Positions 5,976-63,149 of a stretch of 64,000 nt of DNA are shown here, piece by piece. The position numbers and the translations under genes were made by a program. This stretch comes from Luteibacter flocculans (GTDB lineage: Bacteria > Pseudomonadota > Gammaproteobacteria > Xanthomonadales > Rhodanobacteraceae), in assembly GCF_023612255.1 (NCBI RefSeq), contig NZ_CP063231.1, positions 62,001 to 126,000 on the forward strand, given 5' to 3'. The notes beneath the pieces are model-generated. The model worked only from the letters and a program-made list of their open reading frames with translations, had not been told where the DNA came from and searched no databases. Within the stretch, counting starts at the first letter, position 1. Each line of letters begins with the position of its first letter.

Positions 5976-6689
5976 TCAGGCGTCGGGTGCGCGGAGCCGC
6001 TGGCGAACCGCCGGCAGATTGCGTCGGCTGACCTCGGGAGCGAAGTCGGTGCCAGCAAGGCGGGCCAGCACGCGACCGTCGGGCAAGGTGGTAAGCCCCA
6101 ACAGACGCTCCCGCGGAACGAGGCAGTTCCGGTGCAGGCGGACCAGGCGCTCGCCGTGCGCGGTCTCCAATTGACGCAGGGACTCGTCGATCAGCCACGT
6201 GCCCCCCGCGTGCTGCACGGCAACGTACTTCTCGTCCGCCAGCAGATAGAACACATCGCTCAATGGCACGCGGACCTCGTTCGCGCCGCTGCGGGCACGC
6301 AACCACGCGCCACGCTCCACACGCGCTGGTGGCTGCCGCGCGGCGACACGATCGATGGCTTCGTCGAGGCGTTCCGCGCGTACCGGTTTCAGCAGGTAGT
6401 CGGTCGCGCCGAGATCGAAGGCGCTGAGCGCGTGCTGCTCGTAGGCGGTGCAGAACACGACCTGTGGCGGCGACGGCAAGGCGGCGAGGCGGCGTGCGGT
6501 CGCGGTGCCGGAAAGGCCGGGCATCTCCACGTCCAGGAGCACGAGATCGGGTTTCCAGGTGGCGCAGGCCTCCAGCACCGCGTCGCCATCGGCCACTTCG
6601 CCCACCACGGTCACGTCGGTGCGGCGCGCGAGCAAGCCACGCAGGCGCACTCTCGCCAGCGGTTCGTCATCGGCGATCAGGACGCGCAT
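5976..6689 (-). CDS. LytTR-family response regulator (AlgR-like)
   Basis: The 237-residue protein has an N-terminal receiver domain with the acidic pair in LIADDEPLA, the phospho-acceptor Asp in [10 protein letters not shown] and the conserved Lys in DYLLKPV. A C-terminal LytTR DNA-binding domain follows (about residues 135-235; [27 protein letters not shown]). Its start overlaps the 3' end of the histidine-kinase gene by 23 bases, showing an operon. With the kinase it forms an AlgZ/AlgR-type two-component pair, which in relatives controls surface motility, exopolysaccharide and virulence. The targets here cannot be read from the sequence. Confidence 0.93.
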
Positions 6690-7725
6690 GCGCAGCCTCC
6701 GGAAGGAACATGGTCACGACGAAGCGCCCGTCGCTGGCTTCCGCCCGCACCGACGCCCGCTCGCCGAAGTGAAAGCGCACGCGCTCGCGCACGTTGCGCA
6801 GGCCATGGCCGTTGCCTGGCACGGCGGGCGCGTCGGCCAGCGGATTGTCGATCACGATCTCCACGCCGCCCGGCACACGCGTGCCGCCGAGCCGGATCGT
6901 GCCACCTTCGCGAAGGGGCTGTATGCCATGGCGGATGGCGTTCTCCACCAGCGGCTGCAGCAACAGGTGTGGCAGCGGAAGATCCGCCGGGACGTCGATA
7001 TCGCGTTGCACGCGCAAACGATCGCCGAGGCGCAAGGCCTCGATGTCCAGATAGCGATCCACCAGCGCCCATTCCTCACCGAGCGTACTCAGCGCGGCGA
7101 GGTCGCTGCCGAGTGCTGCGCGGAACAGTTCGGCGAGGTTTTCGACGGTGCGCTCGGCGGCGTCGGGGTCCACGCGAATGAGTGCCGCGACGGCGTTCAT
7201 GCTGTTGAACAGGAAGTGCGGCCGGATGCGCGCCTGCAAGGCCGCGACCTGGGCCTGCGCGGCGGCGGCGACGCGTACCTGCCACTGCGCCACCACATAG
7301 AAGTAGCGCAGCAGGCCTGCACCAAGCAGACCCGTCGCGACCATGCTGTCGCGCACGAAACCAAAATGCGATACCGGGCTGAGCCCGGCACCCAGGTTGT
7401 GGTCGATCCAGCCAAGAAGCGCGGCGCTGGCGCCCACGGTCGTCACCAGCAGCAGCCAGACGGCGGCATAGGGCCAGAGCGATGGCAGACGCTGCATCCA
7501 CGGCCGCAGCTTGCACAGTGCCACGGTGAGCAGCACCGACAGCCAGCTCGTGAACAACACGGCGATGCTGTAGTCGCGCAGGTCGCCGTCATTGCCCGGC
7601 GCAAGCCACATCAGCGTGACCGTCAGTGCACCTACCAGCAGCAATGCGAACAGCACCGGCAGGCTGCAGAAATCGGGCAGCGGTGCCGACGGTGGCCGGG
7701 GGGTACGGGGCGCGGGGCTGGACAT
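6667..7725 (-). CDS. AlgZ/FimS-type sensor histidine kinase
   Basis: The 352-residue protein has an N-terminal membrane region of about four hydrophobic segments (for example LPVLFALLLVGALTVTLMWL and SIAVLFTSWLSVLLTVALC). A His_kinase domain of the LytS/AlgZ kind follows, with RPHFLFNSMNAVAAL (phospho-accepting His) and the ATPase parts LLLQPLVENAIRHGI and NGHGLRNVRERV. The ATG at 7725 (MSSPAPRTPR) is preferred over the ATG at 7845 because the extra 40 residues lack a signal and run into the upstream intergenic space. The 23-base overlap with the response regulator indicates translational coupling. The signal sensed is unknown. Confidence 0.92.
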   Translation of the reverse strand: MSSPAPRTPRPPSAPLPDFCSLPVLFALLLVGALTVTLMWLAPGNDGDLRDYSIAVLFTSWLSVLLTVALCKLRPWMQRLPSLWPYAAVWLLLVTTVGASAALLGWIDHNLGAGLSPVSHFGFVRDSMVATGLLGAGLLRYFYVVAQWQVRVAAAAQAQVAALQARIRPHFLFNSMNAVAALIRVDPDAAERTVENLAELFRAALGSDLAALSTLGEEWALVDRYLDIEALRLGDRLRVQRDIDVPADLPLPHLLLQPLVENAIRHGIQPLREGGTIRLGGTRVPGGVEIVIDNPLADAPAVPGNGHGLRNVRERVRFHFGERASVRAEASDGRFVVTMFLPEAAHARPDRR

Positions 7726-7814
7726 GCGGCGAGTATGCAACAGTCGGTCGAGCGGCCTTCTCGGCCGCGCTGTGTTCCGTGACGCCGGTCCCGTCGGCGG
7801 CCCGGCGGACGCAC

Positions 7815-8483
7815 TCACACCGTCGCGAAACGCTCCGTCAGCCAATGTCGGATGTCTTGGATCTCCGTCATGTTCACCTGGTGACCCATCGGATAGCTAT
7901 GCCACTCGATGCGATGCCCCAGCGCTTCCAGGAGCTGCCGCGACCGTTCGCCTAGCGCCATGGGGACGATCGGGTCGACGCTGCCGTGGCCCCAGAAGAT
8001 CGGCGTGGCGTGGTTGGCACCGTGCCGTTCCGCCTCGATGGTCTCGTGCAGCGGCAGGTACGCCGAGAGCACGAGCAGTCCGCCCAAGGTCTCGCGATGC
8101 CGCAGCCCCGCGGCCAGCGTCATGGCGCCCCCCTGCGAGAAGCCTGCCAGCACGATGTGCGATGCCGGAATGCCGCGTTCGACCTCGCGCGCAATCAATG
8201 CTTCCACGTCGGCCACCGAGGCGTGGATGCCTTCGGCGTCCTGTCGATCGGCGATGCCGAGGCTTTTGATGTCGTACCAGGCCCGCATCGGCATGCCGTT
8301 GTTGACCGTGACGGGCCGCACCGGCGCGTGCGGAAAGACGAAGCGAATGCCGGGCCAGGACGGGTCCACCAGCTCGGGCACGATCGGCACGAAGTCGTCG
8401 CCGCTGGCGCCGAGGCCGTGCAACCAGATCACCGACCAGGTCGGATCGGCGTGGGTCTCGTGTTCGACGGTGGGCAACGGCAT
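7815..8483 (-). CDS. Alpha/beta-hydrolase carboxylesterase / phospholipase (acyl-protein thioesterase type)
   Basis: The 222-residue protein matches the PF02230 esterase layout throughout: SVIWLHGLGASGDDF (oxyanion loop), PHAPVRPVTVNNGMPMRAWYDI, nucleophile elbow VLAGFSQGGAM (GxSxG), WGHGSVDPIVP (catalytic Asp region) and a C-terminal catalytic His in YPMGHQV. It should cleave carboxylic or thioesters in the cytoplasm. The gene lies 64 bases after the glutathionylspermidine-synthase-like gene on the same strand and 89 bases before the histidine kinase, so operon membership is uncertain. Confidence 0.92.
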   Translation of the reverse strand: MPLPTVEHETHADPTWSVIWLHGLGASGDDFVPIVPELVDPSWPGIRFVFPHAPVRPVTVNNGMPMRAWYDIKSLGIADRQDAEGIHASVADVEALIAREVERGIPASHIVLAGFSQGGAMTLAAGLRHRETLGGLLVLSAYLPLHETIEAERHGANHATPIFWGHGSVDPIVPMALGERSRQLLEALGHRIEWHSYPMGHQVNMTEIQDIRHWLTERFATV

Positions 8484-8547
8484 GGGGCAACTCCTTCGAC
8501 AGACCGCGCATGGTACCAGCGCATGAAACCAAGCCGCGGCGAAGCGA

Positions 8548-9648
8548 TCAGCGAAACAGATGAGGCACGAAGCAACTCGTGTTGCGCGTGATCAGGTCGC
8601 CGTCCTCGCGCATGCCGATGCCGACCGGCGTATCGCCGACGACCCAGGAACCTACCAGCGCATGCCTGCCATCGAACACCGGCAGCGGCGCGAATGCCTG
8701 GTAGATATGACACGGCTTGCCGTGTCCTCGCTCGCCAGGGGTCAGCACAGCGATGCCCTCGCCTTCGCGGCCCCAATACGGTTTCACCACGGCGGCGCCC
8801 GCGATGGCATCGCGTGTACGGCTGGCGGGCAGAAGGTTCGGATGCCCGGGGAAAAACTCCCAGAGCAAGGGCAGGATCGCCTTGTTCGATAACAGCATCT
8901 TCCAGGGCGGCTCGAGCCAGCGCGTGCCACTTGCCGGGATATGCGCGGCGAACGGCTCGCTCATCAGCCATTCCCACGGATACAGCTTGAACAGACGATC
9001 GATCGGACGATCGGCCAGGTCGATGAATGCCTTGCCCGACCAGCCGATCTCTTCGATGTCCAGCGCCTGCACATCCAGACCCGCCTGCGCGCAGGTGTCG
9101 AGCAGGTAATCCGTGGTCGTGCCGTCCTCGGGGCTGTCGTAGCACGCGGCGAAGTGCATGCGCGCGCCGCCGCCCACGACGCGCCAGCGCTCGATCAGTG
9201 CTTCGTGGATCGCATTGAACTGATCGGCATCCGGGGCCACGTCTTCCAGCCAGTACCACTGCACGACCGATGCTTCGAACAGCGAGGTCGGCGTATCGGC
9301 GTTGTATTCGAGCAGCTTCGGTGGCGAGCGTCCGTCGAACGACAGATCCATCCGACCGTACAGCGCCGGATCGCGATCGAACCAACTGCGCTCGGCGAGA
9401 CGCGCGGCGGCGTCGCCGAGACCGAGATCCTCGTAGCGTCCCGCACGGACGATGCGATCCACCGCCTCCATGCACAGGCCGTGCAGTTCCGCCGTGGCCG
9501 CTTCGAGCGTGTCGATGGCATGTTCGTCGAACACATAGCAGGCGTCTTCGCGCCAGTACGGCTGACCATCCAGGGTGTGGAAGCCGAACCCGATCGCCTC
9601 GACGCGGGCTTGCCAGTCCGCTCGAGGTTCGATGCGTTCGCGACGCAT
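8548..9648 (-). CDS. Glutathionylspermidine synthase family protein (YgiC/YjfC type)
   Basis: The 366-residue product has the ATP-grasp synthetase landmarks of the GSP_synth family: GRMDLSFDGRSPPKLLEYNADTPTSLFEASVVQWYW, then NLLPASRTRDAIAGAAVVKPYWGREGEGI (nucleotide-binding lysine loop) and ending ITRNTSCFVPHLFR. It lacks the amidase half of E. coli Gss, as do YgiC and YjfC, so it should make a peptide-polyamine-like amide bond of unknown substrate. The start at 9648 shares one base with the DUF1190 stop (TGATG), a sign of translational coupling. The frame is open upstream to 9879, but this belongs to the overlapping neighbour. Confidence 0.92.
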   Translation of the reverse strand: MRRERIEPRADWQARVEAIGFGFHTLDGQPYWREDACYVFDEHAIDTLEAATAELHGLCMEAVDRIVRAGRYEDLGLGDAAARLAERSWFDRDPALYGRMDLSFDGRSPPKLLEYNADTPTSLFEASVVQWYWLEDVAPDADQFNAIHEALIERWRVVGGGARMHFAACYDSPEDGTTTDYLLDTCAQAGLDVQALDIEEIGWSGKAFIDLADRPIDRLFKLYPWEWLMSEPFAAHIPASGTRWLEPPWKMLLSNKAILPLLWEFFPGHPNLLPASRTRDAIAGAAVVKPYWGREGEGIAVLTPGERGHGKPCHIYQAFAPLPVFDGRHALVGSWVVGDTPVGIGMREDGDLITRNTSCFVPHLFR

Positions 9649-10145
9649 CAACTGCCCCGCGCCGAGACGCGTCCGGTGGAGCCGAAGCCGCCGCGACGGC
9701 CGAAATCCAGGCTCGTGGGGCCGTGTCCGGCGAAGCCTGCACTCGCGCCGCTGGCGTAGCTGCGCCCTGGGCCTGGATCGCCGTCCACGCGGCCGTTGCG
9801 CCAGTCGCTGCGATACCAGGGGCCGTAGTAGTGATAGCCGCCGGTGCCACCGGACGACACGGGCTTGTCCTGCGTGCATTGGCCCGTGGCGTAGTCGTGC
9901 TCGCAGTCTTCCAGCGAGGCGTAACCGTTGCGCTGCACGTCCTTGCCACCGAACGCGGCGAAACCGACGGCCGCCATACCCGCCATGCCCACGGCAACGA
10001 CCAGGGAGCGACGGCGCAGCAGCGGATCGCGTGGCGGATGGAACGACGGATGGCGATAACCGGGCTGCACCGAGAAGCGTGCGTCTTCCTTGGTCGATGC
10101 ATGGCTGGTTTTGCGGGGCGTCAGCGGCGAATCGTCCTTGCTCAT
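9648..10145 (-). CDS. DUF1190-like (YgiB/YjfM-type) membrane-anchored protein
   Basis: The 165-residue protein has a basic N-terminus, one hydrophobic segment (about residues 47-65; SLVVAVGMAGMAAVGFAAFGG) and a region with two Cys (SLEDCEHDYATGQCTQD). The tail is rich in Gly, Tyr, Ser and Arg (YHYYGPWYRSDWRNGR, GRRGGFGSTGRVS). This matches the UPF0441/DUF1190 pattern, whose genes accompany YgiC/YjfC ligases in enterobacteria. Here too the ligase follows directly, with TGATG overlap, and a DUF350 gene precedes by 10 bases. No function is established for the family; it may be the ligase's partner or substrate (inference). Confidence 0.82.
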   Translation of the reverse strand: MSKDDSPLTPRKTSHASTKEDARFSVQPGYRHPSFHPPRDPLLRRRSLVVAVGMAGMAAVGFAAFGGKDVQRNGYASLEDCEHDYATGQCTQDKPVSSGGTGGYHYYGPWYRSDWRNGRVDGDPGPGRSYASGASAGFAGHGPTSLDFGRRGGFGSTGRVSARGS

Positions 10146-10155
10146 GACCCGGTCC

Positions 10156-10560
10156 TCAGTAGGTCATCGCAGCGGCGTTGATCGCGCCGATGCAGGCGGC
10201 CACGACCGCGACGAAGAGCGCCACCGAGCGCACGTCCTGTTCGATCTTGGCGCGCAGGTCGCGCACGATCACGCGGAGCACGAAATGCGTGAGCAGCTGC
10301 ACCACCCACGCCACCAGTCCCCATAGCGCCAGATCGAGCAGGTTGACGCTGTGTGCAATAGCGCTGGCAAGGGGTTGGACGAAGCCGATGGCGGCACCGC
10401 CGAGGCTGATTGCCGCCGACAGGTTGCCGTCGCGGATCAGCGCCATCTCGCGTTGCGGCGTGATCCAGATATAGGTGACCAGGAAGGCCACGAAATACAC
10501 CGCGCCCAGGGCCAGATAGGCCACGAAGGCGGGCAGGGTGAACAGGTCCGATACGATCAC
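10156..10560 (-). CDS. DUF350 (YjfL-type) integral membrane protein
   Basis: The product is 134 residues with four hydrophobic segments: FVAYLALGAVYFVAFLVTYIWI, LSAAISLGGAAIGFVQPLASAI, LLDLALWGLVAWVVQLLTHFVL and SVALFVAVVAACIGAINAAAM. Its two halves resemble each other, as is usual for DUF350. I chose the GTG at 10560 because AAGGA lies about seven bases upstream; the open frame beyond has no family similarity. It heads the DUF350-DUF1190-GSP-synthase operon, the same trio found near yjfK-yjfM-yjfC in enterobacteria and linked there with envelope-stress loci. Confidence 0.88.
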   Translation of the reverse strand: MIVSDLFTLPAFVAYLALGAVYFVAFLVTYIWITPQREMALIRDGNLSAAISLGGAAIGFVQPLASAIAHSVNLLDLALWGLVAWVVQLLTHFVLRVIVRDLRAKIEQDVRSVALFVAVVAACIGAINAAAMTY

Positions 10561-10682
10561 GCGATGCTTCCTTGGCAACGCGGCCGCGTTGGCCGCGGCG
10601 CCAATATAAGCGAAGCGTGCGTCGGTAGGCGTCGGCGACGTTGCGACGCGAGGGATGCGTCCCTCCCCGCGATCGCTTCGGG

Positions 10683-11504
10683 CTACGGGTGAGCCGAGCT
10701 GGTTTTGGCTTGCTTGGCTTCCTTCGCCAGTACCTCGTCCAGCCGTTCGCGAGCAGCCGCGGCGTAGCTGGCGCAGGTTTCTCCCTCGCCTTGCTCGGGG
10801 TGCGGTGTGATCAGCGTGTCGCAAGGCAGCGTCGTCACACGCGCGAGGGTCTGCCGGAACTCGGCCACATACGCAGGGTGATCGCTATACCGGTAGCTGC
10901 CGGCCGTGAAAGCGTACAGGCTGTCGACGAACGCGATGGTCTTGCAGGACGACCCCTCGCACGCCTGCCACGTCCAGGCCGTGCCGCCCGGTGTATGGCC
11001 GGGCGTGATGTGCGCAGTCAGTGCCAGCGGTCCCACCCTGACCACCGTGCCGTCCACGATGTCGCCCACGGCGTTGACCGAGGGATACCGTGGCCCGCCG
11101 CGGACGTATTGCGGATCGGTGGGATCGGCGCCTCCCAGTCGCATCTCGCGTGCGCCCGCCGCAGTGGCACGCACGGTCGCACCGCTGTCCTTCGCCAGTT
11201 GCGCGATGCCACCGGCATGGTCGGAGTGCGCATGCGTGTTGAGGATGAGCTTGATGTCCTCGACGCGAAATCCGAGCTTTCGGATATTGGCCTCGATGAG
11301 CGCGGCGTTTTCGGGGAGCGTCCCGTCGATCAGCACGTGGCCTTGCGGCGAGGTGATGAGGATCGAGGACAACCCCTTGGTGCCCACGTAGTAGCTGTTG
11401 CCGTAGATCGCATGGGGCGCCACCGGCTCGGTCCATGCGGCGTTGTCGTCGGCGAGGACGGGCAGGGCGGTGCAGATGGCAAGAGCGAAGACGAGTCGGC
11501 GCAT
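10683..11504 (-). CDS. Subclass B3 metallo-beta-lactamase
   Basis: The 273-residue precursor has a signal peptide (MRRLVFALAICTALPVLAD) and so is periplasmic. Zinc ligands are all present: H91, H93, D95 and H96 in NTHAHSDHAGG, H170 in TPGHTPGGTAW, and H235 in LITPHPEQ. The serine of the B3 DSL motif is at 195 (FVDSLYAF). These fit a functional di-zinc B3 enzyme able to open beta-lactam rings, including carbapenems in many relatives. Chromosomal B3 enzymes are common in environmental Xanthomonadales. No AmpR-type regulator or mobile element lies beside it, so it looks resident. Activity level and spectrum cannot be judged from sequence. Confidence 0.93.
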   Translation of the reverse strand: MRRLVFALAICTALPVLADDNAAWTEPVAPHAIYGNSYYVGTKGLSSILITSPQGHVLIDGTLPENAALIEANIRKLGFRVEDIKLILNTHAHSDHAGGIAQLAKDSGATVRATAAGAREMRLGGADPTDPQYVRGGPRYPSVNAVGDIVDGTVVRVGPLALTAHITPGHTPGGTAWTWQACEGSSCKTIAFVDSLYAFTAGSYRYSDHPAYVAEFRQTLARVTTLPCDTLITPHPEQGEGETCASYAAAARERLDEVLAKEAKQAKTSSAHP

Positions 11505-32957: not shown

Positions 32958-33020
32958 CTCTGAAGACCGTCGCGTCTTCGCGAATGTGAAGAGGTGTCAC
33001 AGAACGTTCACTGCTGCGCC

Positions 33021-33035
33021 ACCGAAAATTTCGGT
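33021..33035. promoter_or_regulatory. 15-bp palindrome ahead of a small ORF (candidate operator)
   Basis: ACCGAAA-A-TTTCGGT is a perfect palindrome with one central base. It is 51 bases upstream of the ATG at 33086 and 64 bases past the acvB-like stop. Such a compact AT-centred palindrome in GC-rich DNA is typical of repressor sites. A second hairpin, GAAGAC-CGTCGC-GTCTTC at 32962-32979, directly follows acvB and could end its message, though without a T-run. Confidence 0.4.
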
Positions 33036-33085
33036 TCGCAGGCCCAACCTGTCCTTCCGGGCGGGAGCGCGGCAGGAGACGAGTG

Positions 33086-33277
33086 ATGCAGAACGACACG
33101 AAGAAACGGGATTACGGCTCATCTGACGCCGCGCAGTTGCGCAGCCTGGCGAGCCGCGGCGTCAACGTCCCGCAGCCGACCCGACCGCCGGTACGCGAGA
33201 GCCGTCGCGAGCGCCCCGCTTCGCGCGGCCCCGGACGTAGCCGCTCAGCCGAAAGTGCGCCTTCTCCCACGCGGTGA
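33086..33277 (+). CDS. Small basic protein, unknown
   Basis: The 63-residue product (starting MQNDTKKRDYGSSDAAQLRS) is rich in Arg, Ser and Pro and looks disordered; I recognise no family. GGAG at 33075-33078, seven bases before the ATG, is a good ribosome site, and the frame follows a palindromic candidate operator. Against it: in G+C-rich DNA short Arg-rich frames arise by chance, and there is no homologue I can name. Confidence 0.4.
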   Translation: MQNDTKKRDYGSSDAAQLRSLASRGVNVPQPTRPPVRESRRERPASRGPGRSRSAESAPSPTR

Positions 33278-33319
33278 AGGTAAATCGGCACTAATTTTAA
33301 GAATTCTCCTATATCCGTC

Positions 33320-33560
33320 GGCACCCGACCTACGCAAGATTAGGTCCGTGCCCCGCCTGGACGCCCAGGCGAGGCAAACGAATCGCCGATGACCGATCCG
33401 ACGGCAGGATGCCGTCCGTCCCTAGCGCAAGGATCGATCCCCCCCTTCATCGGCGATAACGCCGCGCCGGCTATGCCGGGCCGCGTTGGGGCGGCTCAAG
33501 CCGCCGGACCCAGGGACGGTCACCATGGCCCCCCGCGTGAGCGTGGGGGCCATGTTTTTT
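33320..33560 (+). ncRNA. Candidate structured small RNA ending in an intrinsic terminator
   Basis: About 240 bases without a credible ORF contain an ordered series of exact stems. GGCAC/GTGCC encloses GACCTA/TAGGTC (33320-33352). CGCCTGG/CCAGGCG follows (33354-33371). An 11-bp stem ATCGCCGATGA (33382-33392) with TCATCGGCGAT (33447-33457) encloses CGATCC/GGATCG and a GACGGC/GCCGTC hairpin. Then come CCGGC/GCCGG (33468-33479) and GGCGGC-TCAA-GCCGCC (33490-33505). It closes with a strong terminator at 33524-33560. An AT-rich patch with TATAT at 33310-33314 could be the -10 box. It does not show the conserved motifs of 6S, tmRNA, RNase P, SRP or the riboswitches I know. The nearest same-strand gene downstream is 3.4 kb away, so a free RNA is likelier than a leader. 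Confidence 0.6.
33524..33560 (+). terminator. Strong Rho-independent terminator
   Basis: CATGGCCCCC (33524-33533) pairs perfectly with GGGGGCCATG (33545-33554), with an inner CGC/GCG and a GTGA loop, followed at once by six T residues. It acts on the plus strand. It ends the candidate small RNA, since no plus-strand protein gene precedes it closely. Confidence 0.88.
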
Positions 33561-33603
33561 CTGTCGAGGCCGAACGACCTCGTGGGCTTCGCCTCGAACC
33601 CGG

Positions 33604-34389
33604 TTAATTCTTCGGGTTGCCAAAAAAGACGGACAGTCCCAAGCCGGCCCGTACCGATGGGCCGTGTCGGCCTACGCGGTGCAGGGCATACGCGTCCAAT
33701 TGCATGTGATCGCCCAGCGTGTAGGCCATGCCGCCGCCGAGCTGCAGTTCGTTGCCATCTTCGGCGTCGTGGATGGCGTCCGCTTCCACGTAGGCAACCA
33801 CGTTCTCGCCGAATTTGCGCCCGAACGTCGGCGCCAGCGTCCACGTGTTGCGTCCCTTGAGTCGGTCGACGTTTGCGTAAAGCGTGTTCTGGATGACCTT
33901 GTCCGGCTGCCACTGCATGGTCGCGCCCAGGCTCACCTGGCGCGCGCCGTTGCCGAAGTCGCTGTCGCCGTTGGCGAACGTCACCTGGCCCAGGGCGGCC
34001 CAACTGAAAGCGCCTGCATCGCCCGAGCCGCCCGGCGCCCACTTCACGCCCACGCTGCTGTCGCCATGGCCAACCGCGTGGCGGCGCGATCCCTGGCCCC
34101 GCTCTTCCAGGCGGTTCCACGCCGACCCGCCCACCTGCAGCTCGACAGGGCCACCGAGACCCACGCGAATGAGGCTATCCGCGGTGTACGTGCGATCCAG
34201 GTAACCGTCTTCGCGCTGCCGCTCGTAGGTCGGCAGGCCCTGCTCCAGTGCCACGGTGCCGACCGGTAGCACCGTCGTGGCAAAGCCCGCGCCGGGGCGA
34301 TCGAAGTCCGGCGGATCGGCACGGGCCGCCGTCGCAACGACAAAGGTGGCGAGGGCGGCGAAGACGGCGAGAGCGTGGCGAGAGGTCAT
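33604..34389 (-). CDS. Outer-membrane transporter-like protein (phenol MetA-pathway family)
   Basis: The 261-residue product has a signal peptide (MTSRHALAVFAALATFVVATAARA). A beta-barrel pattern follows: VGTVALEQGLPTYERQRE, SLIRVGLGGPVELQVGGSAWNRLE, SSVGVKWAPG and a final LGLSVFFGNPKN. This fits the MetA-like porin/transporter family, usually annotated only as transporter. An alternative ATG at 34398 adds three residues; neither has a strong ribosome site. The substrate is unknown. Confidence 0.78.
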   Translation of the reverse strand: MTSRHALAVFAALATFVVATAARADPPDFDRPGAGFATTVLPVGTVALEQGLPTYERQREDGYLDRTYTADSLIRVGLGGPVELQVGGSAWNRLEERGQGSRRHAVGHGDSSVGVKWAPGGSGDAGAFSWAALGQVTFANGDSDFGNGARQVSLGATMQWQPDKVIQNTLYANVDRLKGRNTWTLAPTFGRKFGENVVAYVEADAIHDAEDGNELQLGGGMAYTLGDHMQLDAYALHRVGRHGPSVRAGLGLSVFFGNPKN

Positions 34390-59856: not shown

Positions 59857-62800
59857 TTAGAGCGAGAAGTCGTAACGCACGCCAAGCCGCAGGTAGCGCG
59901 GGTTCTGGAACGCGATCGGACGGCGGTAGTCGTCGCTGACCACCGGCACACCGTTCTGCACCGTACCGGTCTCGCCCACGTCGATCTGACCGACGGGACG
60001 CTGGCTGCCGACGACGTTGAACACCGTGGCAGAGAACGCCAGTGGCTGGTTCTGGCCTGCCCACATCGGGCGGTACTCGGCGTTGAGATCGAGGTTCCAT
60101 GTGTACGGCAAGCGGCCCTTCGACCCGCGCGGCGACGGCTGGAAACCGCACTCGAAGTACGAGGCGCCGTATTGGATCGCATCGACCGGATCTAGGCCGA
60201 TGCAGTTCTTCGGACGCCCCGTCGCAACGGCCAGGTTGCCGCCGAACAACCATTCCTGCGTGGCCTGCCAGTAACCGTACGCCTTCAACTGGTGCGTGCG
60301 GTCGTTCGGCAGCGGACCGTTCGCGTACTGCATGATTTCCGGCGCGTCCCAGTCCTGCGTCACCGACGGATCGAGCTGGCCGATGTCCGACTTCAACTGG
60401 CCTTCCGAGTTGCCGTAGCTGCGCGAGAAGGTGTAGTCGATGCGGCCGTACCAATCGTCCGCGAAGTGATGTTCCAGATAGAGATCGAGCGAGTAATAGC
60501 TGCGCTTCAGATCCGGGAACGGCACATTGCCCGGCGGCGGGGAAGTGAAGTCGTCCTTGGTCAGCTTGAACGGCACGTACTGGCCGCCGCCCACGTCCAC
60601 GAGGAAGGTGTTCGACTTGCCCGGATTGAACAGATAGCAGCCGGGCAGCGACGCGTTGCTGATGTCGATGCCGTTGCGCGCGGCATACGACTCGAACGGG
60701 CGCGAATCGCAGAAGTCGTCGATCGAGCTCTTCAGCTTGCGGTACGTAGCCTTCGCACCGAAGCTCCAGTTCTCGTTGATGGCCTTGTCGAAGCCGAGGA
60801 TGTATTCGTCCTGGTAATACGCGTCGATGCCCTTCGCGGCCACGGTCTTCGGATCGGGCGTCGTGCCGTCCTCGCCGTTGAGGTACGCGCGGCTGCCGAG
60901 CTGGGTCAGGCCGGTCGGCTCGCCGTTGGCAGCCACGCCGCTATAGGTGTAGTACTCGCTGTAGTACGTGGATGCCGACGCGCCGCGGATCGCGACGTTG
61001 GACGGAATGGCGAGGTGATAGCGGCCGGCGTTCGCGTAGATCTTGAACGTGGAGTCGCCGAACACGTCCCAGGTCGCACCGAGGCGTGGCGCAAGCTGAT
61101 GACGCTGCTTCACATAGGTCTCGCCGTCGCCATTCAAGTTCTTGAACTGCTCGTTGCGCAGGCCGAGGTACACCATCCAGCGATCGGTGACCTGCCAGTG
61201 GTCTTCGATGTACTGCGCTTCCTGTTCGGTCTTCACGCTTGCGCCGGTTTCGAAGAGACGCTTTTCCGCGACGTACGTGGTACCGGGCGGCGGCACGATG
61301 TCGGGACGGCCCGTGACTGTGCCCGCATTGCGATAGACCCAGCGGTAGCCGCCTTCGTAGATGTTGCCGGAGGTCGATTCGAGCGTCTGGTTGTCCACAC
61401 CGACGCGCAGATCGTGATCGCCCGCGCGGTATTCCACGTCGAGACGCCAGCCGTGCGTCTTGTCCTTGGCACCGGCATTCAGCACCGTGCCGTTGACGAG
61501 GCCGCAGCCGGTAATCGGATTGGCGATGCCGCGACGGTTGTCCGTGATCCACGGGCAGTTCGACGAACCGGCGTAGCCAAGATCGCGCTCGTGCTTCGTG
61601 GTGGTGTGACCGTACAGCGCGTTGATGGTCAGGTCGTCGGTGATGTAGCCCGTGTACTTGCCGATGTAGACGTCACCGCCCGGTGCCGAGCCCGCGCCCG
61701 CATCGAAGTTCTTGAGATTGTCGGTGCCGAGATACGCACCGCGGCTGCGCGTGTCGTAGTCGTACGCGTAGACGCTGCGTTCGGTGTTGGTCTTGTCGCC
61801 GATGCCGGTGACTTCGAGCAGATGGTTGTCGGTGATGTTCCAGTCGATCTTGCCCATCCACTTCGTGGCCTTCTGCGTCTGGTTCGTACGCTGCGGGGCC
61901 AGAATGCTGCTGGTGGACTTGGTATCGGTGCGGGTGAAGTCGCCCGCAGCGAACAGGAACAGCTTGTCCTTGATCAGCGGACCGCTGATGTAGGCGGTGT
62001 ACTGGGTGTCGCTGCGCTCGTTGTCGCCGCGGTTCTGGTACAGCTGGCCGTTGGTGCGATAGATATTGCGTGGCGACTGGCGTGCGCCGTTCGGCTGGAT
62101 GTACATGCCGACGCCGCCCTTCCAGGTGTTGCCGCCGCGCTTGGTCACGATGTTGATCACGCCGCCAGTCGAGCGACCGTATTCCGCACCGTAACCACCG
62201 GTGAAGATCTGTTGCTGGTCGATCGCGTCGTAGGGCAGGCTGGTGAAGCCCAGGCCGGTGAGCGCGTTGGTCACCGCATAGCCGTTGATGTAGTACTGGT
62301 TCTCGGACGCCGACGAACCGCCGAACGAGGCGACGTTACCGTAGCGGCTGTCGCCGGAAATGACGCCCGGCGCGAGCAGCGCGGCCGCTGTCACGTCGCG
62401 TGCGAGAGGCAGCTTCTGCAACTGTTCCGAGGTAAGTACGGTGCGCGAGTCGACCTGGGACACGTCGATCGCGGGGAGGACGTTGCCGGTGACCTGCACG
62501 CCTTCCAGGTTCTGCGCGGAAGTTGCAGAAGCAGTCGCTGCGCCGCCGAAGGACACGTCCACGCCGCCGCCGAGGTTCACCTGCACGTTGTCGCGGCTTT
62601 CCGCGACCTGACCGCCGCGCTGGACCGATACCTTGTAGCGGCCGACCGGCAGCGAGCTGGCGCGGTAGCGCCCATCGGCATCCACGCCGACGTCGCGGGT
62701 CAGACCCGTATCCAGGTTTTCGAGATGGACGACGGCGCCGTCCGGCTGCGCGACGCGGCCGAACACGACACCGGAAGCATTGGACTGGGCGAGCACGGCG

Positions 62801-62880
62801 CCACTGGCGAAGCAGAAGGCGAGGGCGGTGCACAAGGCGGTGCGCCGAATGGCGCCATTGCGAACGTTGGAGGCCTGCAT
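59857..62880 (-). CDS. Oar-like TonB-dependent receptor with carboxypeptidase-regulatory-like N-terminus
   Basis: The 1007-residue precursor has a signal peptide (ALCTALAFCFASGAVLAQ) and a CarboxypepD_reg-like domain (about 33-95; GVVFGRVAQPDGAVVHLENLDTGLTRDVGVDADGRYRASSLPVGRYKVSVQRGG). A plug (VDSRTVLTSEQLQKLPLARDVTAAALLAPGVI, YGRSTGGVINIVTKRGGN) and a long barrel ending GVRYDFSL follow. These receptors are common in Xanthomonadales; substrates are mostly unknown. The start at 62880 has GGGGAG upstream. The terminator at 59704-59731 ends it. The divergent region to the riboswitch is 623 bases. Confidence 0.88.
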   Translation of the reverse strand: MQASNVRNGAIRRTALCTALAFCFASGAVLAQSNASGVVFGRVAQPDGAVVHLENLDTGLTRDVGVDADGRYRASSLPVGRYKVSVQRGGQVAESRDNVQVNLGGGVDVSFGGAATASATSAQNLEGVQVTGNVLPAIDVSQVDSRTVLTSEQLQKLPLARDVTAAALLAPGVISGDSRYGNVASFGGSSASENQYYINGYAVTNALTGLGFTSLPYDAIDQQQIFTGGYGAEYGRSTGGVINIVTKRGGNTWKGGVGMYIQPNGARQSPRNIYRTNGQLYQNRGDNERSDTQYTAYISGPLIKDKLFLFAAGDFTRTDTKSTSSILAPQRTNQTQKATKWMGKIDWNITDNHLLEVTGIGDKTNTERSVYAYDYDTRSRGAYLGTDNLKNFDAGAGSAPGGDVYIGKYTGYITDDLTINALYGHTTTKHERDLGYAGSSNCPWITDNRRGIANPITGCGLVNGTVLNAGAKDKTHGWRLDVEYRAGDHDLRVGVDNQTLESTSGNIYEGGYRWVYRNAGTVTGRPDIVPPPGTTYVAEKRLFETGASVKTEQEAQYIEDHWQVTDRWMVYLGLRNEQFKNLNGDGETYVKQRHQLAPRLGATWDVFGDSTFKIYANAGRYHLAIPSNVAIRGASASTYYSEYYTYSGVAANGEPTGLTQLGSRAYLNGEDGTTPDPKTVAAKGIDAYYQDEYILGFDKAINENWSFGAKATYRKLKSSIDDFCDSRPFESYAARNGIDISNASLPGCYLFNPGKSNTFLVDVGGGQYVPFKLTKDDFTSPPPGNVPFPDLKRSYYSLDLYLEHHFADDWYGRIDYTFSRSYGNSEGQLKSDIGQLDPSVTQDWDAPEIMQYANGPLPNDRTHQLKAYGYWQATQEWLFGGNLAVATGRPKNCIGLDPVDAIQYGASYFECGFQPSPRGSKGRLPYTWNLDLNAEYRPMWAGQNQPLAFSATVFNVVGSQRPVGQIDVGETGTVQNGVPVVSDDYRRPIAFQNPRYLRLGVRYDFSL

Positions 62881-63149
62881 GTGTTTGTCTCCCCGAGGAA
62901 AAGCAAGAAAGCCGGCTGCGAAGGTGCGAGCCGAGCTCCGGCGGTATTGCTGTCTCATCGCCCCGCTCCACCGGTCCCCCCGGACGCGGCTTCGTAGGCC
63001 ATGCCTCCCGTTGCGCCATACCGCGCGCCCGACAGCAATTCCTTTCGCTTGTAATCGAATTATTTTGCGATGGTCAACCCTGTGTTAAGCAAAAATTAAA
63101 TTTGTCGTGACAAACAAGCACTTGCCGGCTACCATCCGCCCCGTTCGGG
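62881..63149. other. Promoter region of the Oar-like receptor and of the cobalamin-riboswitch transcript
   Basis: Most of this stretch is non-coding. The part at 63050-63120 is strikingly A/T-rich (it contains AAGCAAAAATTAAATTTGTC) and probably carries both divergent promoters. An inverted repeat TTTGTC-GT-GACAAA at 63101-63114 could bind a regulator. I see no gene. Confidence 0.45.

Follow-up and report, generated by a model that had tools for sequence, protein, structure and literature searches.

Within a 64,000-nucleotide (nt) window of Luteibacter flocculans DNA (RefSeq assembly GCF_023612255.1, contig NZ_CP063231.1, positions 62,001 to 126,000 of the forward strand; all coordinates below are those of the window), we identified a conserved, structured RNA element on the plus strand that is almost certainly real. 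The first-pass annotation had described at this locus a previously unrecognised structured small RNA of about 240 nt starting at 33320. Its identification as a small RNA is supported by conservation, covariation and what appear to be its own promoter and terminator; its 5' end, by contrast, was placed about 27 nt too early, and the RNA would start near 33347 and measure about 212 nt. The element is a small RNA family that is new by Rfam but of a kind already known, with an unusually well-defined promoter class. We read it as an independently transcribed, trans-acting RNA of ~212 nt in the soil bacterium Luteibacter and in Pinirhizobacter that would be activated by an RcsB-like regulator and pair through a cytosine (C) tract, and we give this reading as a whole an even chance of being correct.

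The region has a predicted folding energy of −130.6 kcal/mol, compared to a shuffled mean of −101.8 kcal/mol (z = −6.0), and none of 200 shuffles equalled it; the corrected transcript, taken as 33347-33560, gave a z of −5.0. The succession of exact stems reported earlier, including an 11-base-pair (bp) long-range stem enclosing a 6-bp stem and a hairpin, is present both in the letters and in the minimum-energy fold. The terminator proposed for the end of the run can likewise be read from the sequence, and a consensus scan gave its stem as 33530-33549. The parts of the RNA are as follows.

33347-33558, plus strand: inferred small RNA of ~212 nt, its 5' end set from the −10 position (±2) and its 3' end lying within the T run
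33349-33376, plus strand: 5' hairpin, optional, absent from 3 of 24 homologues (L015, L018 and L021)
33382-33457, plus strand: core, made up of stems P1 and P2 and hairpin P3
33382-33392 with 33447-33457, plus strand: stem P1, 11 bp (sequence and minimum-energy fold)
33394-33399 with 33431-33436, plus strand: stem P2, 6 bp, enclosed by P1 (sequence and minimum-energy fold)
33400-33416, plus strand: hairpin P3, with AGGA in its loop (sequence and minimum-energy fold)
33439-33445, plus strand: C tract, C6 or C7 followed by UUC, invariant and predicted to be unpaired
33458-33487, plus strand: hairpin P5, with two-sided changes in 5 of 12 pairs (model-fitted alignment)
33490-33505, plus strand: hairpin P6, with two-sided changes in 3 of 4 pairs (model-fitted alignment)
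33512-33516, plus strand: ANGGA motif, AGGGA here and AAGGA or AUGGA in three distant homologues (alignments)
33524-33560, plus strand: intrinsic terminator with a GUGA tetraloop and T6 (sequence, consensus scan and folds)

In the window, CCGUCCCU (33416-33423) could also form a pseudoknot with AGGGACGG (33512-33519); judged by eye from the alignments, at least 6 bp of it are apparently kept in the closer Luteibacter sequences and not in L022 to L024. We mention this pairing as a possibility and do not claim it.

When 61 genomes were searched at the DNA level, the element was present in all 23 Luteibacter genomes, including the 4.3-Mb genome from which the window was taken (the own genome, below), and one further genus, Pinirhizobacter, matched at E 1.5e-26; the match in a second non-Luteibacter genus covered only 30 bases and was disregarded. 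A covariance model built from 23 sequences recovered the element in 24 of 233 family genomes (23 Luteibacter and 1 Pinirhizobacter) and in 15 of 299 genomes sampled from the order. All matches were confined to these two genera, with a single copy per genome, and none was detected outside them among the 299 order genomes under strict filters that may miss weak homologues. Plasmid and phage records contained no match at E 1e-5. The core pattern occurred in 24 named records (13 Luteibacter, 1 Pinirhizobacter soli and 10 others), and the 10 others were put down to chance, as the covariance model gave no match in them. When all families of Rfam 15 were scanned with cmscan, none reached its gathering score in the element region, which agrees with the earlier statement that no known RNA class could be recognised. 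A relaxed scan yielded nothing convincing, the best match (20.1 bits versus a 39-bit cut-off) lying over the terminator end. The sole Rfam family match in the window was a cobalamin riboswitch (RF00174, 63130-63367, plus strand, 81.5 bits).

The first-pass annotation had looked to a covariance model of relatives, and to compensatory changes in the 11-bp stem, for support. The stems are kept among relatives and compensatory changes occur. Aligned by MAFFT, 23 sequences were paired in 97.5% of cells and showed two-sided changes in 14 of 52 pairs, compared to 3.9 in shuffles; the model-fitted alignment of 24 sequences gave 98.6%, with two-sided changes in 17 of 52 pairs versus 4.8. Slid controls paired in 29 to 48% of cells. 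Because model fitting favours structure, the MAFFT figure is the conservative one, and the shuffle counts are not probabilities, since related sequences are not independent. P1 carried two-sided changes in 4 of its 11 pairs in both alignments; in the model-fitted alignment, P2 had two such pairs and P3 one. P2 lacked them on MAFFT because three distant rows were out of register there, which model fitting corrects.

Upstream of the RNA, an alignment anchored on the 5' block revealed strong conservation of 33293-33316, then a spacer of fixed length and variable sequence, and then a conserved hexamer at 33335-33340. The AT-rich patch previously noted before the RNA is indeed present, but it reads as an operator, and 33296-33340 as the promoter, with these components.

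33296-33313, plus strand: operator TTTAAGAATTCTCCTATA, RcsB-box-like, centred at about −42.5 from the inferred start and strongly conserved in 24 homologues (23 aligned)
33312-33317, plus strand: TATCCG at the −35 position, a poor match to TTGACA, 17 bp upstream of the −10 hexamer
33335-33340, plus strand: −10 hexamer CAAGAT, an xAxxxT at constant offset from the operator

With up to two mismatches, the 18-base operator pattern was found 73 times in the 23 Luteibacter genomes, versus 11 times for the reversed pattern; 22 matches were the RNA itself and 51 lay elsewhere. We fetched 42 of these 51 sites and dropped four that were in coding frames or overlapped their start (L160, L172, L178 and L184), leaving 38. 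Counted from the operator start, 25 of the 38 had an xAxxxT hexamer at offset 39 or 40, against a background of 0.068 per offset pair, as did all 24 RNA loci. With one member kept per apparent orthologue group, grouped by eye, the count was 16 of 27 (p ~1e-12). As the sites were picked by the operator alone, the −10 at a fixed offset is an independent sign of one promoter class that includes the promoter of the RNA. Moreover, a composite operator/−10 pattern, searched without mismatch, matched 25 times in 17 of 23 Luteibacter genomes (16 times at the RNA itself and 9 times elsewhere, in 8 genomes), with no match in 38 other genomes or in the control. The −10 position fixed by this comparison sets the start near 33347, which puts the centre of the operator at −42.5; judged from the sequences, class membership and this start are very likely.

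Several other interpretations of this region were rejected. A start at 33320 was discarded because the constant-length variable spacer, the −10 at constant offset and the same layout at unrelated genes mark the segment as promoter DNA. The block 33293-33316 was dropped as an anti-Shine-Dalgarno seed (CCUCCU) for being promoter DNA as well, and a hairpin between operator and −10 was dismissed, as RNAalifold found no consensus pairs and the segment lies upstream of the inferred start. A scan of 33000-33700 found no sigma-70 consensus promoter; the 6S gene of the genus carries, by eye, TTGATG and TAAAAT. Inverted repeats of varying sequence lie just upstream of the operator, at 33255-33285 and at homologous loci of several species (e.g., L004, L005, L022 and L024).

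The operator is similar to the RcsAB box. Its half-sites resemble TTAGGAA and TCTAAGA, which the available text of PMC5829831 names as RcsB half-sites in the flhDC promoter. We took seven further regions around operator sites (L215 to L221, with the own genome as L218). In L215, L216, L217 and L220 (4 of 7), the operator is flanked by a kinase gene and by a small gene of 73 to 87 amino acids (aa), and the kinase gene is divergent from an RcsB-like regulator gene; tblastn confirmed regulator and kinase in these regions, and L219 and L221 contain neither. The L216 and L220 kinases combine SBP_bac_3, HisKA, HATPase_c and Response_reg domains, as in the BvgS/EvgS type. In L216 this arrangement lies at 6639-10728, and its 73-aa small protein has no Pfam family. 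For the own-genome regulator, the NCBI RcsB model was the best match, at 169 bits, and the best PDB matches were RcsB structures (5vxn, E 1.6e-42). Another regulator of the own genome that looks RcsB-like by eye (L212) is divergent from another kinase-like frame. These sequence relationships suggest that the RNA is probably controlled by an RcsB-like regulator.

We listed 25 proteins encoded downstream of operator sites and picked ten by eye for a domain scan, all from other Luteibacter genomes. The scan identified Fimbrial (L157), CsgG (L156), EAL-GGDEF (L185), an acyltransferase with SGNH (L188), Autotransporter (L180 and L191) and the type V secretion signal ESPR (L170); Fimbrial in L164 was under the cut-off, and the L161 and L173 proteins had no family in the scan. 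The −10 is at the expected offset in L156, L157, L164, L185 and L188 and is lacking there in L170, L180 and L191, so the autotransporter genes have the operator only. The scanned genes are a surface-leaning selected sample, not a regulon. As for the four other sites of the own genome, a 73-aa gene follows one of them, and each of the remaining three is followed by one of a series of tandem genes whose starts, by eye, resemble signal peptides. At L154 (own-genome positions 2308574, 2309946 and 2310707), three operator copies lie within ~2.2 kb, all followed by a −10-like hexamer at the usual spacing. The genes there start with nearly the same sequence and a signal-peptide-like N terminus and look like tandem members of one exported protein family; the idea that these copies drive tandem small RNA genes was rejected, since protein genes follow.

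In all 24 homologues, the C tract consists of six or seven C residues and then UUC. With the corrected start, it is predicted to be unpaired in each of them, in line with its earlier description as single-stranded (mean probability, 0.98; at least 0.89 in every homologue); a start further upstream lowers the value in a few of them, to 0.47 to 0.61 in L015 or L020. Xanthomonas belongs to the same bacterial order as Luteibacter, and its small RNA sX13 offers a precedent. According to the available text of PMC3771888, sX13 represses mRNAs bearing G-rich motifs via C-rich loops, independently of Hfq, and the element is like it in being strongly folded, with unpaired C-rich sequence and proposed pairing with G-rich translation starts. 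As compared by description, they differ in that sX13 carries C-rich sequence in the loops of three stem-loops, 4C in two of these, whereas the element has one C tract in a long-range junction. We prefer an antisense mechanism mainly because of this precedent, and consider it slightly less than evenly balanced that the RNA acts antisense through the C tract.

The circuit we propose has the following steps. Transcription would begin at ~33347, with the operator at about −42.5, where class II activators bind, as the sequence statistics support. The activator would be an RcsB-like response regulator of the NarL/FixJ type, phosphorylated by a BvgS/EvgS-type hybrid kinase. The invariant C6-7 tract would then be displayed in the asymmetric internal loop that separates P1 from P2, pair with G-rich ribosome-binding sites and change translation, as sX13 does. 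As output, surface or biofilm functions would be tuned alongside the directly activated genes, and the element probably serves an envelope or biofilm signalling system as its RNA arm.

A number of observations weigh against this proposal. At the promoter, 13 of the 38 other operator sites have no −10 at the expected offset, including three autotransporter-type sites, and the four other sites of the own genome are not accompanied by any named surface gene. In the own genome, regulator and small gene are present but no kinase is adjacent, and a search for a remnant found none. The regulator's score falls below the 235-bit NCBI RcsB cut-off, and of the base-contacting RcsB residues K180 and S184 reported in the text available for PMC5829831, it keeps K180 but has Arg at the S184 position; on account of the low score and this substitution, we term it RcsB-like and not RcsB. 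Furthermore, 4 of 21 GerE matches of the own genome appear RcsB-like by eye, which leaves several candidate activators. On the target side, GAAGGGG before ATG showed no Luteibacter-specific enrichment: its ratio to the reversed pattern was 1.92 in Luteibacter, compared with 1.72 in other members of the family (14 genomes) and 2.66 in other members of the order (24 genomes). A duplex scan of 245 translation starts detected no recurring target. The strongest C-tract duplex predicted among these starts was at a minus-strand gene (59857-62958, −21.0 kcal/mol).

The lack of a target in these searches also fits an alternative in which the RNA is a protein scaffold or decoy, or an unrecognised structural RNA, and the P1/P2/C-tract core binds a protein or ligand instead of serving as an antisense seed. 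Apart from one G-U in one sequence, P1 does not vary in its six inner pairs, a degree of constancy that exceeds what pairing needs; close alignment, however, also yields invariant pairs, and we regard this alternative as unlikely.

Somewhat less probable still is an RsmA/CsrA-binding RNA, in which the AGGA of the P3 loop and the 3' ANGGA would titrate RsmA like CsrB/RsmZ or Xanthomonas RsmU. csrA is present, the AGGA of the loop does not vary, and ANGGA changes only at its N. These motifs, a point of likeness to those RNAs, are commoner in the element than expected: AGGA plus ANGGA number 3 to 5 per homologue versus 0.9 to 1.9 in dinucleotide shuffles, a count in which one site may figure twice. 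Plain GGA, by contrast, is not enriched in the element (3 to 7 per homologue, near the shuffled means of 3.3 to 5.5), which sets it apart from RsmU and CsrB/RsmZ. Only one conserved GGA lies in a hairpin loop, another is inside P2, and the 3' ANGGA is often predicted to be partly paired. In the available text of PMC7694677, RsmU, with 3 to 4 GGA motifs, binds RsmA and still bound it when these motifs were altered, so that a GGA motif alone is a weak guide; the same source describes RsmU as processed from a 3' untranslated region (3' UTR), whereas the element appears to have its own promoter.

The gene neighbourhood bears on whether the RNA could be a cis-regulatory leader or a processed 3' UTR. 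A plus-strand cluster of LPG-synthase, VirJ and small genes lies on one side of the element and minus-strand MetA-like and GH3 genes on the other, an order shared by most homologous loci. The small gene (33083-33277, 63 to 64 aa, no Pfam family) occurs in every one of the 23 Luteibacter genomes and was absent from the 38 others searched, with three of its matches crossing a stop codon. It stands upstream of the RNA in all 23 Luteibacter loci and directly adjacent in 21, as a 3' UTR origin would have it. In L022 and L024, however, another gene, presumably a flavin reductase, stands between the two, and at the Pinirhizobacter locus (L023) the upstream gene differs; the promoter block and the RNA remain together when these neighbours change. 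Downstream, the window offers no co-directional gene, the next ones (MetA-like and GH3) being convergent, and the terminator is strong. An origin as leader or 3' UTR is therefore very improbable, and independence of the RNA from its upstream neighbours, with a promoter and terminator of its own, is supported by these sequence comparisons. A small protein gene is hardly credible, in agreement with the first-pass annotation: the 72-aa frame overlapping the RNA (33389-33607) has a conserved start codon (ATG; GTG in L003) and similar first residues because the DNA is conserved, but that codon lies inside P1, and the frame is not kept in homologues, its open length ranging from 22 to at least 200 aa; C6/C7 variation also shifts it.

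We also compared the element with other known RNAs. 6S RNA, which we take to be similar in size and in having a long-range stem, is a different molecule: all 23 Luteibacter genomes have a genuine 6S gene at another place, and the element has no RF00013 match. Escherichia coli RprA, an RcsB-activated small RNA which we assume to be among the Rfam families and to fold differently, is likewise distinct, as the element matches no Rfam small RNA family. The likeness to RprA would lie in circuit position, as a small RNA gene with an upstream RcsB-type operator in a network that also governs surface structures, as described in the available texts of PMC5651002 and PMC3465796. RcsB/C have been studied in Lysobacter enzymogenes, in a report whose available main text does not contain the word sRNA (PMC13101495). 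In the literature on Luteibacter small RNAs, we found no publication on this RNA, most subscription papers being outside the search.

Altogether, our data add a well-defined small RNA family without an Rfam match, and a promoter class, for Luteibacter. More tentatively, and with the balance somewhat against it, a genus-specific RcsB-like/BvgS-type network outside Enterobacterales may have independently gained a small RNA arm that is analogous to RprA but unrelated in sequence, uses as its seed a C tract placed in a long-range junction and is co-regulated with fimbrial, curli-type and cyclic di-GMP genes. The kinase, the RcsB-like regulator, the small RNA and the surface genes make up a testable circuit, and this circuit would mirror, by convergence, the Rcs-RprA logic of enterobacteria.
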